The translations under genes were made by a program, and so were the position numbers. Shown piece by piece: positions 1 to 5,126 of a stretch of DNA of 5,575 nt. The DNA comes from a bacterium (GTDB taxonomy: Bacteria; UBP15; UBA6099; JAJRTR01), in contig JAJRTR010000172.1 of NCBI GenBank assembly GCA_024278215.1, forward strand, positions 1-5,575, in the 5' to 3' direction. The number at the start of each line of letters is the position of its first letter. The stretch's first letter is position 1. A model generated the notes under the pieces. That model saw nothing but the letters and a program-made list of their open reading frames with translations. It was not told the origin of the DNA and did no database searches.

Positions 1-104
1 AAATTGTTCAGAGCAAGGCAGAGGTGTAAAATCCTCGCAGGCGTACTTGCAGAGTACGTCGAGGACGATTTTGCGCCGACAACGCAGCTATGGACAATAG
101 CAGC
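1..104. repeat. Nested palindromic intergenic repeat at the left edge
   Basis: No gene is apparent here. The sequence folds into a long imperfect hairpin: 28-32 (AAAAT) pairs with 68-72 (ATTTT), 33-37 (CCTCG) with 60-64 (CGAGG), and 43-47 (GTACT) with 53-57 (AGTAC) around a five-base loop. A second hairpin follows, 87-91 (GCTAT) with 97-101 (ATAGC). This nested shape resembles the dispersed palindromic repeats found between genes in several bacterial genomes, but that likeness comes from memory and was not searched. The element may continue left of the window. It could instead be the 3' end of a structured RNA or a terminator for an upstream gene, although no clean T-run follows the stem. Confidence 0.45.
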
Positions 105-205
105 CGACCGCAGCAGAATCAGAATTTTGCAATTGGCTCGTATATATAATATCACGAATCCGAGCAGAATTTGAAGTAAAGCGGCCAGACAATGTGCATA
201 ACGTC

Positions 206-218: not shown

Positions 219-343
219 TGTATGCGACACAAAAGTGGGTTTTTGCGAAAAGCGGGACAGGTACCGCAAAAAACAGCGTTACCAGTCCCTGTTTTTCGCA
301 CATTAAAAATGTGGTTGTTTTTAACCCACTTTTATGTCGCACA
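219..343. mobile_element. MITE-like inverted-repeat element, about 125 bp
   Basis: The arm at 223-241 (TGCGACACAAAAGTGGGTT) is the reverse complement of 323-341 with one mismatch in 19. Both outer ends read TGT...ACA (219-221 and 341-343). Inside, 245-260 pairs imperfectly with 284-299 and 261-267 pairs imperfectly with 276-282, so the whole unit can fold as one long hairpin. A side hairpin, CACATT/AATGTG, lies at 299-304 and 308-313. Identical 13-base direct repeats abut both ends. No transposase is encoded, so if mobile it would need an enzyme supplied elsewhere. Alternatives are a structured RNA or a palindromic repeat that never moved. Confidence 0.5.
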
Positions 344-489: not shown

Positions 490-1434
490 ATGACGAGTAT
501 GATGGAACATGTAACATGTGATCTCTGCGGCAGTGACGACTGCTCGCGCGAGCTTGAAAAGAACGGCTGCACGATCGTAAAGTGCGGCGACTGCGGCCTC
601 GTGTATGTGAACCCGAGGCCGACAGAAGCATATCTTTCCGCAGAAGTATACACAGAAGCATATTTCAATGCGGAAAAAGGTTATGGAATAGCCGACCTTT
701 TCGGGGCGGGCCACAGGGAAGCACGTGCCAGGGCGGACAGGATACTCGACGATGTCGAAAAAAGGATCAGCCCGGGTAATGTCTTCGATGTGGGCTGCTC
801 AGCCGGTTTTGTTCTCGAAAAAGCTCGTGAGCGTGGATGGAATACCCGCGGAATAGAGCTATCGGATTTCGCCGCCTCTTATGCGAGGGAAGAACTCGGA
901 CTGGATGTCGCCACCGGTAGTCTCACAGACACTACCGTCGAGCTTCCCGAGAATGCCTTTGATCTTGTGTTGATGCTTGACGTAATCGAGCATTTCACGT
1001 CTCCTTCTACTGCCCTGGCTCGCACTGCGGACATGATGAAAAGCAATGGCCTGCTATATATGAATACGCCGAACTATGACAGTCCACCCGTGCGCGCGCT
1101 TGGCGCGGGATGGGGCAATATCACACCTGAACACCATCTGTTTTATTTCACGCCTGACACACTTGAGCGTATGCTGGATAAAAATGGATTCAAAATTGTA
1201 GATATGCAGTTCCCGCTATGGGGACTTGCGGACGTACTGCTGTCTGCCGGATCGTTCAGAAAGGCAGGAATTCCGGCCGGCGATGAGCAGAAGAAGTTTG
1301 TCCGGAAATATCTCAGGGGACCGCGCGACCTTGCGCGTGGTATCGTATCCGGCATCGACCGTATCCTGATCACACCATTCACAAAACGCAGGACCGGCGT
1401 CTCGATAAATGTCATAGCAGAAAAAAAATTCTGA
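490..1434 (+). CDS. Class I SAM-dependent methyltransferase with N-terminal zinc-ribbon motif
   Basis: A 314-residue protein that probably transfers a methyl group from S-adenosylmethionine; the acceptor is unknown. C10-x2-C13 and C32-x2-C35 form a zinc-ribbon-like four-cysteine head, common in methyltransferases of sugar and surface-glycan gene clusters. The Rossmann core follows: motif I FDVGCSAGFVLE (99-110), an acidic strand end GIELS (121-125) expected to contact SAM ribose, and FDLVLMLDVIEHF (157-169), the motif with the DVIEH signature. NTPNYDS (192-198) and PEHHLFYFTPDTLERML (213-229) are typical of the Methyltransf_23/type 11-12 group. The ATG at 490 is chosen because GGGGA at 476-480 lies nine bases upstream; Met4 and Met5 have poorer spacing. 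Length is normal for the family. No glycan genes adjoin it inside the window, so the substrate cannot be inferred. It ends convergently with the ExbD-like gene. Confidence 0.88.
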   Translation: MTSMMEHVTCDLCGSDDCSRELEKNGCTIVKCGDCGLVYVNPRPTEAYLSAEVYTEAYFNAEKGYGIADLFGAGHREARARADRILDDVEKRISPGNVFDVGCSAGFVLEKARERGWNTRGIELSDFAASYAREELGLDVATGSLTDTTVELPENAFDLVLMLDVIEHFTSPSTALARTADMMKSNGLLYMNTPNYDSPPVRALGAGWGNITPEHHLFYFTPDTLERMLDKNGFKIVDMQFPLWGLADVLLSAGSFRKAGIPAGDEQKKFVRKYLRGPRDLARGIVSGIDRILITPFTKRRTGVSINVIAEKKF

Positions 1435-1568
1435 TTCTGCTACGCTCGACTGCAATTGTCCGGAGCTAACCCGGATTTCTCACAAAGAACTCCGGGGCCT
1501 GTCTGGTACCGGCTATGGCGGGTCAGGTTGAATGAGCAGTTACAGAAGAGAGATAGAAAGCACGTCCA
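1435..1568. other. Convergent intergenic region without a clear terminator
   Basis: These 134 bases separate the ends of two convergent genes. CCGGAG at 1460-1465 can pair with CTCCGG at 1490-1495 across a 24-base loop, but no T-run follows on either strand, so I do not call an intrinsic terminator. Nothing else recognisable is present. Confidence 0.4.
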
Positions 1569-2222
1569 TCATTCTTTTTCCCTGAGATCGAGGTAGAAGT
1601 GGTCGCCTTTACCCTGCTGTTGAGTATCCTGCGGGACCGGGCCGCCGGTGTTTATTTTATCTATTTTACGCTGCTGATTCTCTTCGATATTTTCATCGGA
1701 TTTTCTATCATCTTTCCGTACTGTTTGTGTTTGTGCGGTCTTTTCGGCTTCCAGCTTGGCCATCTGTTTTTTCAGGCTTTCAAGTTCCGCCTGCTTTTCC
1801 TTCAGTTTCTTTTCGAGTTCGATAACCAGTTGCGGTTCGTCGCCCCTGCCGAGTTGTCTTCCGCCGCCGGGTCCGGCGACTGTGCTTTCTCCGCCTTCGC
1901 CTTTGCCGGTTTTTTTCTGTGGCGCCACAAGTGCACGAATCTGGCCGCTGCCTTCGAGAGGACGCAGCTCCGATGACATTTTCTGCTGTCCCACTCCGAT
2001 ATTCTGCTTTTGTATCCCTGAGGGTTTAATGATGAATTCACCTTCGAGATTGTCTATTTTCTTTGTTTCCTGTGTTTCGATATCAGTTGTTCCCAGCGGT
2101 TCGAAATATGCGATTGAAAGCATGCCGATGAATATGATTATCAACATGAAACAGAAGTCGATGTAGGGCATCAGGAACGATACCCGTTTCTTTGGTCTGC
2201 CTGAGGTTGGAGCTTCATTCAT
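1569..2222 (-). CDS. ExbD/TolR-like single-TM motor subunit with coiled-coil tail
   Basis: A 217-residue protein with a short basic N-terminus (KKR 11-13), one transmembrane helix (about 17-39) and a long hydrophilic remainder expected outside the cytoplasm. The helix contains MPYIDFCFMLIIIF (18-31), closely matching the ExbD/TolR signature P-x-ID-x-M-x-LLIIF; Asp22 corresponds to the proton-carrying aspartate of that family (Asp25 in E. coli ExbD). After the helix comes a linker (40-100), a Gly-rich stretch (104-128), a charged heptad-like coiled coil (about 131-163) and a Gln-rich tail. The usual ExbD periplasmic fold and an OmpA/MotB peptidoglycan-binding domain are not visible. The gene follows the ExbB-like gene by 109 bases on the same strand, the expected A/B pairing. 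The ATG at 2222 has only a weak GAAAGAA-type ribosome site, but it gives the normal pre-TM length; Met18 would remove the basic N-terminus. The partner and cargo are unknown. Confidence 0.72.
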   Translation of the reverse strand: MNEAPTSGRPKKRVSFLMPYIDFCFMLIIIFIGMLSIAYFEPLGTTDIETQETKKIDNLEGEFIIKPSGIQKQNIGVGQQKMSSELRPLEGSGQIRALVAPQKKTGKGEGGESTVAGPGGGRQLGRGDEPQLVIELEKKLKEKQAELESLKKQMAKLEAEKTAQTQTVRKDDRKSDENIEENQQRKIDKINTGGPVPQDTQQQGKGDHFYLDLREKE

Positions 2223-2331: not shown

Positions 2332-3462
2332 TTATCCCGTTGCCCTCTCGCGGTTTGAGACCCGCCGCGATTCGTAGCTGGCGAGCATGCTCAACATTAT
2401 AGACAGGCTGAGACCGGTTATGGTGGGCTCGATCTTGACATAGATTCCGTAGCCGATGGCGGCTATGTCCCTGCTTGCGATGGCGGGGCCGATGAGAAGT
2501 CCGAGTCCGAACAGTGTACATATCAGGCCGAAACCCTGCGCGGCGGATGCCATGGTCACGAGTTTTTCTTCATAAGGTTCTGTCGAAACAAGGCCGACGA
2601 TACACGTCCCTACAGCGACTATCGCCGCCCAGTATGTACTCAGCAATATACCGCCATAAAGAATAAACCAGACTCCGACCGAAAGCACCAGCGCGATGAA
2701 GATCATGTCCTTCCAGCCATCGGGTTTCCCTTTGACAATGCCGAGCACGAGATAGACGACCCACAGGGCCCAGGCCAGTCCCCACGCTGTTTTCACATAA
2801 GGCGCAAGGCTCTGCGTGATGGGGTCATTATGTGCCTTTTTTCTTATTTCCGCCAGCGGATCCTTTTCCCTCTCACCGCCTTTGTCTATTACTTTCACTC
2901 CCGGATTGGTGAAACCCTCGATTTTTTTCTTGTCGGTTGTGAGTATCGCCGCGTTGGGGCGTTCCTGCACCCGGAAGTAGCCGCACTCGGCTGTGGACCT
3001 GAGCGGTATCATCATGCGATTTTCAAATATGAACGGCGCGACAGGCAGCATTCTCACACTTCCGCCCATGTCGATGTTGGGGTCGTCAACCTTCATCTTT
3101 ATTGTTCTTTTACCCGGGAATACTAACTCCGCTACCTTATCATCCTTATACCATGTAACTTTCGCGCGAAGCGACTCGGCGGCGAAACGAAGCGGAATGA
3201 ATACGATGCCGCCGCGCTCGACCGGCGGCACGTCCGGCGAGATCGTGGCGCCGTCTACAACTATCGCGAAATCCGGTCTGACCCTGACCGTAGCATCAAG
3301 GATATCCTCCGCCATTTCCATCGCCCTCGCACTTTGCGCGACAACAAAACACATCACCAGCACAGATGTCAGGACGAAAAGAATCGTTCCGGGTTCCGAG
3401 CAGTTTATCTTCTTCAAAAGAGTAGCCCCTAATTTAGTTTTCTGCTTATTTATTACTTTCAT
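2332..3462 (-). CDS. Stalk-domain (copper amine oxidase N-like) fused to a MotA/TolQ/ExbB-like channel
   Basis: A 376-residue membrane protein. Residues 25-47 form a signal peptide or anchor ending in SARA. Residues 64-176 match the copper amine oxidase N-terminal/stalk domain: two repeats with the signatures FIPLRFAAESLRAKVTWY (88-105) and MMIPLRSTAE (150-159). After a charged linker come hydrophobic helices at about 225-243, 253-271, 274-293, 306-328 and 333-360. The last two resemble the MotA/TolQ/ExbB pore: GLICTLFG (313-320) parallels GLxGTVxG, and PTITGLSLS (346-354) parallels TAIGL, with Thr316 and Thr347 at the positions of the two conserved channel threonines. Predicted topology puts these helices in the ExbB orientation. 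The large cytoplasmic loop of ExbB or MotA is reduced to about 12 residues. The next gene is ExbD-like, supporting a motor pair. The ATG at 3462 lacks a ribosome site; TTG at 3417 (codon 16) has AGGGG eight bases upstream and gives a textbook signal peptide, so it may be the true start. The channel assignment is by eye. Confidence 0.68.
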   Translation of the reverse strand: MKVINKQKTKLGATLLKKINCSEPGTILFVLTSVLVMCFVVAQSARAMEMAEDILDATVRVRPDFAIVVDGATISPDVPPVERGGIVFIPLRFAAESLRAKVTWYKDDKVAELVFPGKRTIKMKVDDPNIDMGGSVRMLPVAPFIFENRMMIPLRSTAECGYFRVQERPNAAILTTDKKKIEGFTNPGVKVIDKGGEREKDPLAEIRKKAHNDPITQSLAPYVKTAWGLAWALWVVYLVLGIVKGKPDGWKDMIFIALVLSVGVWFILYGGILLSTYWAAIVAVGTCIVGLVSTEPYEEKLVTMASAAQGFGLICTLFGLGLLIGPAIASRDIAAIGYGIYVKIEPTITGLSLSIMLSMLASYESRRVSNRERATG

Positions 3463-3547: not shown

Positions 3548-3802
3548 TCAGTTTCCGTTCATGACTTCGGGCTCGGCACTTTCCCTGACGAGTTCACCGG
3601 CGTCGCGCGCATCCTGCGCCATGACTTTCACCCTCACCTCGCCCATGCCGTCGACATTGAAAACATGCACTGAAGGCGCTGCCGCGGATTCGAGAACGCA
3701 TTTTATTCCGTTCGACTCGAGCAGACCCCTGACAATATGCGCTTCCGGGAACCCCCAGGCTTTGTAGACGGTAACCCATTTGGCGGTTTTTTCGTTACTC
3801 AT
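3548..3802 (-). CDS. DUF2007 family protein (putative signal-transducing protein)
   Basis: An 84-residue soluble protein without a signal peptide or membrane segment. WVTVYKAWGFPEAHIVRGLLESNGIKC (9-35) is the family hallmark: an aromatic/Val strand, then an EA-x-II-x-GLLES-x-GI helix-turn. A ferredoxin-like second half follows (VRVKVMAQDARDAGELV, 56-72), matching the usual ending in which D-x-x-A-x-x-LV closes the domain. Length is normal. The biochemical role of DUF2007 (PF09413) is not established; it is often described as a PII-like or signal-transducing fold. The gene lies 85 bases upstream of the ExbB-like gene on the same strand, so it may be co-transcribed, but a functional link is inference. 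The ATG at 3802 has no ribosome site at normal spacing, and a TATAAT lies only five bases upstream, which suggests a leaderless message. Confidence 0.8.
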   Translation of the reverse strand: MSNEKTAKWVTVYKAWGFPEAHIVRGLLESNGIKCVLESAAAPSVHVFNVDGMGEVRVKVMAQDARDAGELVRESAEPEVMNGN

Positions 3803-4259: not shown

Positions 4260-4312
4260 CCCGAAAGGGAAATTAGATATGTGCGCAAAAAAGAATGAAG
4301 TTTGCGCTATCT
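4260..4312 (+). promoter_or_regulatory. Structured flgF leader: GNRA-capped hairpin plus 12-bp stem
   Basis: CCC-GAAA-GGG (4260-4269) is a short stem capped by a GNRA tetraloop. It is followed by a larger stem: AGATA (4275-4279) pairs with TATCT (4308-4312), and GCGCAAA (4283-4289) with TTTGCGC (4301-4307). A three-base bulge (4280-4282) and an 11-base loop complete it. The stem ends 10 bases before the AGGAGG of flgF, so folding could modulate translation. It does not match the cyclic-di-GMP-I riboswitch consensus as I know it. Confidence 0.4.
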
Positions 4313-4321
4313 CGTATGGGC

Positions 4322-4327
4322 AGGAGG
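4322..4327 (+). promoter_or_regulatory. flgF: Ribosome binding site that fixes the flgF start
   Basis: A perfect AGGAGG, seven bases before TTG 4335. It decides the start against an upstream in-frame TTG at 4302, which lies inside the leader stem and has no ribosome site. Confidence 0.9.
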
Positions 4328-4334
4328 TGAGAAA

Positions 4335-5126
4335 TTGGACAGAGGTCTCTACACAGCCACAACAGGGATGCTCGTGCAGGAACTGCGACTTGATTATGCC
4401 GCGAACAACCTTGCGAACGTCAATACAATCGGGTTCAAGAGCAATGTCGGCGCGATAAAGTCTTTTCCGCAGATGCTGGTGCACAGGATAAACGACACAT
4501 ATCTGAAGACGAGCGGAGTCGAAGGGAATATGGATCTGCGGCCGCTTATAGGCATGAGCTCGATGGGGGCTGTTGTGGATGAGATCGCCACGAATTTCAC
4601 CAGGGGAGACATCCAGATTACGGGCAACAAGTTTGACCTGTCGATCGACGGCAACGGATTTTTCGTAGTGGAAACGCCATACGGTGAACGAATGACCCGT
4701 GCGGGCAATTTCGCGATAAATGCCAACAGGCAACTGGTCACAAAGGACGGGTACCGTGTGATGGGAGAGAACGGCCCGATAATACTGGACGGGCACAGTT
4801 TCCAGGTGGATGAACAGGGCGTTGTCTACGTCGGCCTTAAATCCGACGAATATGTGGACAAGCTGAAAATCGTAACCGTGGACGATTACAAAACGATCAA
4901 GAAGGTTGGCAACAATCTCTACATGGTCCCAAAGGAACACCCGCAACCGTACACCACCACAGCGGTGACGGTAAGGCAGGGTACGTTGGAGATTTCAAAT
5001 GTCAATCCTGTAATCGAGTTGAGGCAGATGATCGATGTTATGCGAATGTACGAAGCAAACTCGAAAGTCATCCAGACCAAAGACTCGCTTATCGGCAAGG
5101 CGGCCGTCGAGATCGGCAAGAAGTAG
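4335..5126 (+). CDS. flgF: Flagellar basal-body rod protein FlgF
   Basis: A 263-residue rod-family protein that would be exported through the flagellar type III apparatus and assembled into the rod. Residues 3-12 (RGLYTATTGM) and 24-35 (NNLANVNTIGFK) form the N-terminal rod motif. The central FlgE/F/G-type domain shows DLSIDGNGFFVV (101-112) and RAGNF (122-126). The C-terminal helix with ELRQMIDVMRMYEANSKVIQ (228-247) is the family's conserved coiled-coil end. Length fits FlgF/FlgG (about 250-260). TTG 4335 is chosen because AGGAGG lies seven bases upstream and it yields the canonical MxRGLYTA start. FlgF is preferred to FlgG because a second paralogue downstream has the clear FlgG signature and flgF-flgG is the usual order. 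Naming it a second FlgG-like protein (as with FlhO/FlhP in Bacillus) is the alternative. Promoter candidates lie at 4035-4064 and 4218-4246. Confidence 0.88.
   Translation: MDRGLYTATTGMLVQELRLDYAANNLANVNTIGFKSNVGAIKSFPQMLVHRINDTYLKTSGVEGNMDLRPLIGMSSMGAVVDEIATNFTRGDIQITGNKFDLSIDGNGFFVVETPYGERMTRAGNFAINANRQLVTKDGYRVMGENGPIILDGHSFQVDEQGVVYVGLKSDEYVDKLKIVTVDDYKTIKKVGNNLYMVPKEHPQPYTTTAVTVRQGTLEISNVNPVIELRQMIDVMRMYEANSKVIQTKDSLIGKAAVEIGKK

Follow-up and report, generated by a model that had tools for sequence, protein, structure and literature searches.

The window, a stretch of 5,575 nt, is an entire contig, one of 207 from a 4.55-Mb draft genome of the phylum UBP15. Its minus strand encodes a fusion protein in which a signal peptide and an extracytoplasmic stalk domain precede a MotA/ExbB-like channel, and an ExbD-like partner is the product of the gene that follows (Table 1). 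The single reading frame that the original prediction had described, joining a stalk domain to channel helices, is present as claimed.

Table 1. Features of the window (positions are those of the whole 5,575 nt stretch)
Feature	Position	Strand	Details
Fusion gene	2332..3462	minus	376 codons; signal peptide, Cu_amine_oxidN1 stalk and five-helix MotA/ExbB-like channel
Predicted signal peptide	3322..3417	minus	Residues 16-47; AQSARA before likely cleavage site; from sequence, hydropathy and orthologs
Cu_amine_oxidN1 (PF07833) stalk domain	2983..3261	minus	Residues 68-160; Pfam profile
Channel half	2335..2823	minus	Residues 214-376; has five helices, of which helices 2-5 correspond to the channel that stands alone in the second phylum
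Sub-threshold MotA_ExbB match	2350..2562	minus	Residues 301-371; Pfam
Thr316	2515-2517	minus	Within MotA_ExbB match
Thr347	2422-2424	minus	Within MotA_ExbB match
ExbD-like partner gene	1569..2222	minus	217 aa; N-terminal transmembrane helix, then low-complexity and coiled-coil sequence, and a conserved tail at the C-terminus
Partner core	2091..2189	minus	Residues 12-44; KRVSFLMPYIDFCFMLIIIFxGMLSIAYFEPLG
Partner Asp22	2157-2159	minus
Partner C-terminal tail	1572..1607	minus	GDHFYLDLREKE in the window; GNHHYIDLRKNK and FGSSEYIDIRK in relatives
DUF2007 gene	3548..3802	minus	Directly upstream of fusion; Pfam
flgF/flgG-type flagellar rod genes	4302-5126 and from about 5431	plus	Divergent from fusion
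Dispersed repeat, right part	1-149		Non-coding
Dispersed repeat, inverted part-copy	1425-1467		Non-coding
19-nt inverted repeat	223-241 / 323-341		Non-coding; before methyltransferase gene

The fusion gene and its stalk domain

The true start of the fusion gene is probably the TTG codon at 3417, corresponding to residue 16, since an AGGGG sequence lies upstream and the TTG starts of the orthologs agree. The orthologs open with a short, typical and equivalent signal peptide, and the first hydrophobic stretch of the window's protein is best read as a cleavable signal peptide, not as part of the channel. A signal peptide at the N-terminus would place the stalk outside the membrane, with five helices following it.

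The stalk domain matched PF07833 with 65.4 bits (E 5.1e-18) in one profile search and 68.5 bits in another, passing the curated cut-off of 24.2 bits. Pfam reported a single such match in the fusion protein, and the span of residues 64-176 first assigned to the stalk is roughly correct. Between the window and its relatives the stalk is 47-54% identical, against 61-65% for the channel. Cell-wall hydrolases often carry PF07833 domains (PMC4137172), and in a Paenibacillus SOD the domain is a homodimerization module that stabilizes the protein (PMC10432803). Given this frequency in cell-wall hydrolases and the one case of homodimerization, wall anchoring or subunit assembly by the stalk appears at least as likely as the sensing or binding of a ligand. 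Elsewhere, the same genome has two more open frames, of 686 and 696 aa, whose products carry Cu_amine_oxidN1.

When 60 genomes were searched at the protein level, five from the same order yielded full-length orthologs that are 54-57% identical to the fusion. Six of the seven UBP15 genomes examined, including that of the window, have both the fusion and the partner; the seventh is 78% complete. The fusion is under strong purifying selection, with pN of 0.01-0.04 and pS of 0.2-0.4 among close relatives (0.030 versus 0.384 in one example). The search for the same fusion in other genomes, proposed with the original prediction, was successful: five of the six other UBP15 genomes contain it, and a second phylum has a three-gene form. 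With these full-length orthologs and a pN far below pS, the fusion is not a product of chance but a genuine gene. The ortholog in RA.bin91 carries a frameshift near residue 340.

Upstream of the fusion, the window has a single DUF2007 gene, and one relative that was examined (L008) has DUF2007 genes in tandem (2543-2776 and 2827-3066); such genes form a conserved neighbourhood of the fusion. A flagellar link through the neighbouring flgF/flgG-type genes was considered and rejected, as relatives lack such genes beside the fusion. Promoter and terminator scans gave results at chance level, and an Rfam search found nothing.

Relationship of the channel half and the partner to ion-driven motors

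The five hydrophobic helices that had been placed after the stalk are found in an AlphaFold model of the channel half (pLDDT 77, pTM 0.69, from an alignment of ten sequences), at about residues 217-244, 250-269, 276-292, 297-329 and 333-375, and show partly in hydropathy. The segments GLICTLFG, with Thr316, and PTITGL, with Thr347, were located in the last two helices, where they had been predicted. This C-terminal helix pair, KLVTMAS-AQG-GLICTLFGLGLLIGPAIA-RDI-AIG-GIYVKIEPTITGL, is the most conserved block of the fusion, and Thr316, Thr347 and TITGL are kept in both phyla in every sequence extending that far.

Against the Pfam MotA_ExbB profile (PF01618), which has a gathering cut-off of 22.9 bits, the channel half scored 22.8 bits (E 8e-5), the full-length fusion 19.4 bits (E 9e-4) and the channel of the second phylum 15.1 bits, well under the cut-off. 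The profile match foreseen for the C-terminal half exists, but falls 0.1 bit short of the threshold. Because the scores lie below the cut-off, we call the channel a divergent relative of PF01618 and not a member. Seven of eight channel sequences across the two phyla matched the profile in the same register, and none of nine reversed or locally shuffled channel control sequences did so.

In a profile comparison with 26 ExbB/TolQ-type proteins gathered for the analysis, the channel scored 32.0, against a mean of 15.1 and a maximum of 21.7 for 60 block shuffles. It should be noted that the reversed channel alignment scored 26.2, so that helix composition alone accounts for part of the ExbB/TolQ score; the margin above composition appears real yet moderate. 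The alignment set KLVTMASAAQGFGLICTLFG opposite LATIA..GLLGTV.G, and GIYVKIEPTITGL opposite GIAEALITTAAGL, pairing Thr316 with the threonine of GLxGT and Thr347 with the conserved threonine before GL in the last helix. Two adjacent pore helices carry GLxGTxxG-like and T-x-x-GL motifs in register, and the proposed equivalence of Thr316 and Thr347 to the conserved pore-helix threonines holds in this alignment.

By VIA-align, the channel model has the transmembrane-unit fold of MotA, TolQ and ExbB. PomA/MotA gave the best natural overlay (Z 9-11, rmsd 2.1-2.4 Å, 103 residues, 14-24% identity), followed by ZorA, TolQ and ExbB at Z 7-9. A de novo designed helical bundle tied for the top Z, at 11.2, so the fold alone is insufficient for family assignment. 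Foldseek with the channel model gave no match at E 0.001 (best E 0.17), and its top matches were mostly TolQ, ExbB, MotA, PomA or ZorA. The full-length AlphaFold model was poor (pLDDT 54), with a stalk part that was not usable, and yielded the same fold families. A search of PDB sequences with the channel profile gave no match. The cytoplasmic domain typical of the family is missing: in the channel half, about 5-12 residues (STEPYEEK) separate helix 3 from helix 4.

Nothing in the module is more conserved than the partner core, in which the UBP15 sequences all agree except at one position; the region between core and tail is variable. Within the core, MPYIDFCFMLIIIF aligns to the ExbD segment tPliDxxfxLLIFFm, a transmembrane stretch of the P-x-x-D-hydrophobic type. 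An ExbD-like neighbour with a transmembrane aspartate, as expected from the original prediction, is thus encoded next door, with Asp22 aligned in the ExbD segment. In a profile comparison with ExbD the partner scored 33.1 (null maximum 29.9; reversed 14.0), and four of nine partners matched Pfam ExbD (PF02472) under the cut-off, with a best E of 1.8e-4. Pfam gave no ExbD match past the transmembrane region of the partner, and so no sign of the globular periplasmic domain of ExbD/TolR. In four relatives the partner gene begins some 20-26 bases before the fusion gene ends, which makes co-translation of fusion and partner very likely. Matches of the partner in a PDB sequence search were coiled-coil noise.

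Pfam, profile comparison and fold agree with the prediction that the C-terminal half is a MotA/TolQ/ExbB-type channel, although a divergent one. No single test is decisive; taking all of them jointly with the ExbD-like neighbour, we are highly confident that the channel is related to MotA/TolQ/ExbB.

A split form of the module in a second phylum

A profile of the channel half, searched against 386 genomes across bacteria, matched, at E of about 1e-30, three genomes that belong to a single other lineage, and a later profile search added a fourth genome with the split module. The module is present in all four genomes examined from this second phylum, which belong to one genus and are 1.8-2.0 Mb in size. 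All four contain dsrB (dissimilatory sulfite reductase), and the lineage is very probably Thermodesulfobiota, genus Thermodesulfobium; Dictyoglomus was rejected as the second lineage, the GH11 xylanase not being found there. Among the approximately 386 sampled genomes, no further lineage with the module was found. Two weak matches to the channel profile elsewhere were rejected as an MFS transporter (genome G132) and as antisense to a ribosomal L1-like gene (genome G081); other matches, at E 1e-4 to 1e-2, lay mostly inside longer frames. The partner-core profile matched precisely the channel-bearing genomes, plus chance matches; weak partner-profile matches in genomes G146, G070 and G081 were likewise ascribed to chance.

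In the second phylum, stalk, channel and partner are three adjacent genes. The stalk gene comes first; its product consists of a signal peptide, a Cu_amine_oxidN1 domain (106.4 bits, above the cut-off) and a single C-terminal helix. The channel that follows is a separate four-helix protein of 133-141 residues, and the partner gene after it encodes the equivalent of the UBP15 core, here MPFIDFAFML, and a YIDIRK tail. Stalks of both forms share a segment around ILDA and DVPPV, outside the generic domain.

The order of stalk, helix, four-helix channel and partner is identical in the two forms, carried by three genes in one and two in the other. Going by this gene order, the single helix of the split stalk would be the counterpart of helix 1 among the five in the fusion. 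As the same module is separate in one phylum and fused in the other, stalk and channel are functional partners that have become fused. The separate-to-fused pair represents genetic evidence for cooperation between stalk and channel that is beyond the reach of any single genome.

The split operon continues downstream with three genes on the same strand, of 186, 178 and 625 aa (L104, 5894-8861). Pfam assigned none of these three genes to a family above the cut-off, and one has a sub-threshold PASTA hint (E 0.22). It is possible that they encode further parts of the system.

Proposed mechanism and comparison with known systems

We propose, with a probability of about 0.6, that the module belongs to the MotA/TolQ/ExbB-ExbD type and works in the inner membrane as an ion channel or motor, in which the ring is held by the stalks and the output passes through the partner tail. 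Several copies of the channel (five by analogy) would encircle the transmembrane helices of the partner (two by analogy). Asp22 of the partner would be the ion carrier, facing a pore whose lining is formed by the two final channel helices, which bear Thr316 and Thr347, and inward ion flow would shift the partner relative to the channel ring. Each channel subunit would contribute one stalk domain on the periplasmic side; these domains would hold the ring in place, via the cell wall or each other, so that the motion passes to the partner. The long periplasmic arm of the partner, ending in the conserved YIDLR-like tail, would be the output. We infer the 5 : 2 stoichiometry, the ion flow, the anchoring by stalks and the output of force via the tail. 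No TonB, OmpA-like or Tol gene was found beside the module in the loci examined.

A more specific version leads us to speculate about a rotary motor with reversed anchoring, in which the stalks would fix the channel ring and the partner dimer would turn freely, with the YIDLR tail as output. Such a motor would have the smallest channel of its class and would occur in split and fused forms in two phyla. We put this version forward tentatively and consider it doubtful.

The stalks might instead merely assemble or stabilize the ring as a collar around the same channel and partner, with no wall anchoring. The homodimerizing domain of the Paenibacillus SOD offers a precedent, and the split-form stalk, a separate protein with its own helix, resembles an accessory assembly subunit. 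The stalk is, however, less conserved than the channel, which would suit a variable ligand on the outside just as well as a collar; we regard a collar as rather unlikely.

We consider it improbable that the module is a gated ion channel or sensor that performs no rotary work, its stalk binding an envelope ligand to open the pore and its partner serving as a plug. A partner that has no globular periplasmic domain for delivering force would suit such a channel, as would the lack of TonB-like or OmpA-like genes in the loci examined. However, characterized relatives with a transmembrane-Asp partner all turn ion flow into mechanical work (PMC9389320), and it is the partner core that is most conserved in the module, with the far tail conserved too.

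Convergence, by which an unrelated five-helix, glycine-rich protein would lie beside an unrelated single-pass protein, is disfavoured and still less probable. The sub-threshold Pfam score, the 26.2 reached by the reversed alignment and the designed bundle that ranks level with MotA are all compatible with it; but two independent phyla match the same family in the same register where scrambled sequences do not, the fold search returns the MotA/TolQ/ExbB/ZorA families together, and an ExbD-like gene adjoins the channel at every locus. A gene-calling or assembly artefact, which could be suspected from a short contig of a fragmented assembly and from one frameshifted ortholog, is refuted by the same uninterrupted fusion, under purifying selection, in four other independent assemblies.

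The proposed channel or motor shares features with several known systems. TtpC-type proteins are examples of A subunits with an N-terminal appended domain. A DUF3450 or DUF2341 at the N-terminus has been described for A subunits of the non-flagellar 'generic ion transporter' kind (PMC12505986); like the fusion, they have a domain appended N-terminally to a MotA/TolQ/ExbB-type subunit. The appended domain belongs to another family, a split version is not mentioned in the part of that report on which we draw, and the minimal channel and the partner tail are specific to the module described here.

In Serratia marcescens, ExbB starts with a signal sequence and is extended at its N-terminus by a periplasmic stretch to which HasB, a paralog of TonB, binds (PMC9008036). 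This pore subunit resembles the fusion in its signal sequence and in being extended N-terminally outside the cytoplasm, and in having pore-helix motifs with conserved threonines and an adjacent ExbD-type gene with a transmembrane Asp. However, its extension is a flexible, proline-rich stretch, whereas that of the fusion is a folded PF07833 domain; its channel is built of three helices with a large cytoplasmic domain, whereas the fusion has five helices and almost no cytoplasmic domain; and its partner is a true ExbD, unlike the partner here, which lacks the ExbD periplasmic domain. The original statement that no described motor has this arrangement was too strong, because extracytoplasmic appendages on ExbB-type subunits had already been described, in Serratia ExbB (PMC9008036) and in the DUF3450/DUF2341 A subunits (PMC12505986).

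MotAB/PomAB share with the module a four-helix channel unit, the best natural overlay, and a partner with one Asp-bearing N-terminal helix. In contrast to these stators, the module has no torque-generating cytoplasmic domain and its partner has no OmpA-like peptidoglycan-binding domain. In the window's own genome there are also two TolQ/ExbB-type genes and a separate flagellar stator gene of the MotP/PomA type, and the fusion module is therefore an additional system. There is also a likeness to Zorya ZorAB, in that the channel model matches ZorA (8vvi, Z 9.0) and the second-phylum partner weakly matches ZorB (E 7e-5). PADLOC models gave no match for the fusion, the window partner or the second-phylum channel, and no ZorC/D/E-like genes were recognized among the neighbours scanned.

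In the paper library that was searched, nothing was found that combines the stalk domain with channels of this type. The new elements are the PF07833 domain on the channel, the near loss of the cytoplasmic domain, the split and fused forms in two phyla, and a partner that lacks an ExbD- or OmpA-like globular periplasmic domain and has a conserved tail. The module is a real, conserved and previously unnamed variant of the MotA/TolQ/ExbB-type motor, the function of which we infer. In known motors the partner (MotB) is anchored, or the restraint of the ring is left open, as for GldL (PMC9389320); a channel subunit that itself carries a folded domain outside the cytoplasm represents a natural test case for ring restraint. 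With 133 residues, four helices and almost no cytoplasmic part, the split channel is a candidate minimal motor suited to structural work.

The window also contains repeats. The arms of the 19-nt inverted repeat are 95% complementary and 81 nt apart. The dispersed non-coding repeat, about 180 bp long, occurs at least 40 times in this genome with 94-100% identity (40 of 473 first-look candidates being scored), often at contig ends. Aligned copies have terminal inverted repeats, GAGCCAATTGCAAAATT ... AATTTTGCAATTGGCTC, and by eye most complete copies show apparent 4-bp target duplications (AATA, AGTG, GTAA, TAAA), features that give the element a MITE-like appearance.
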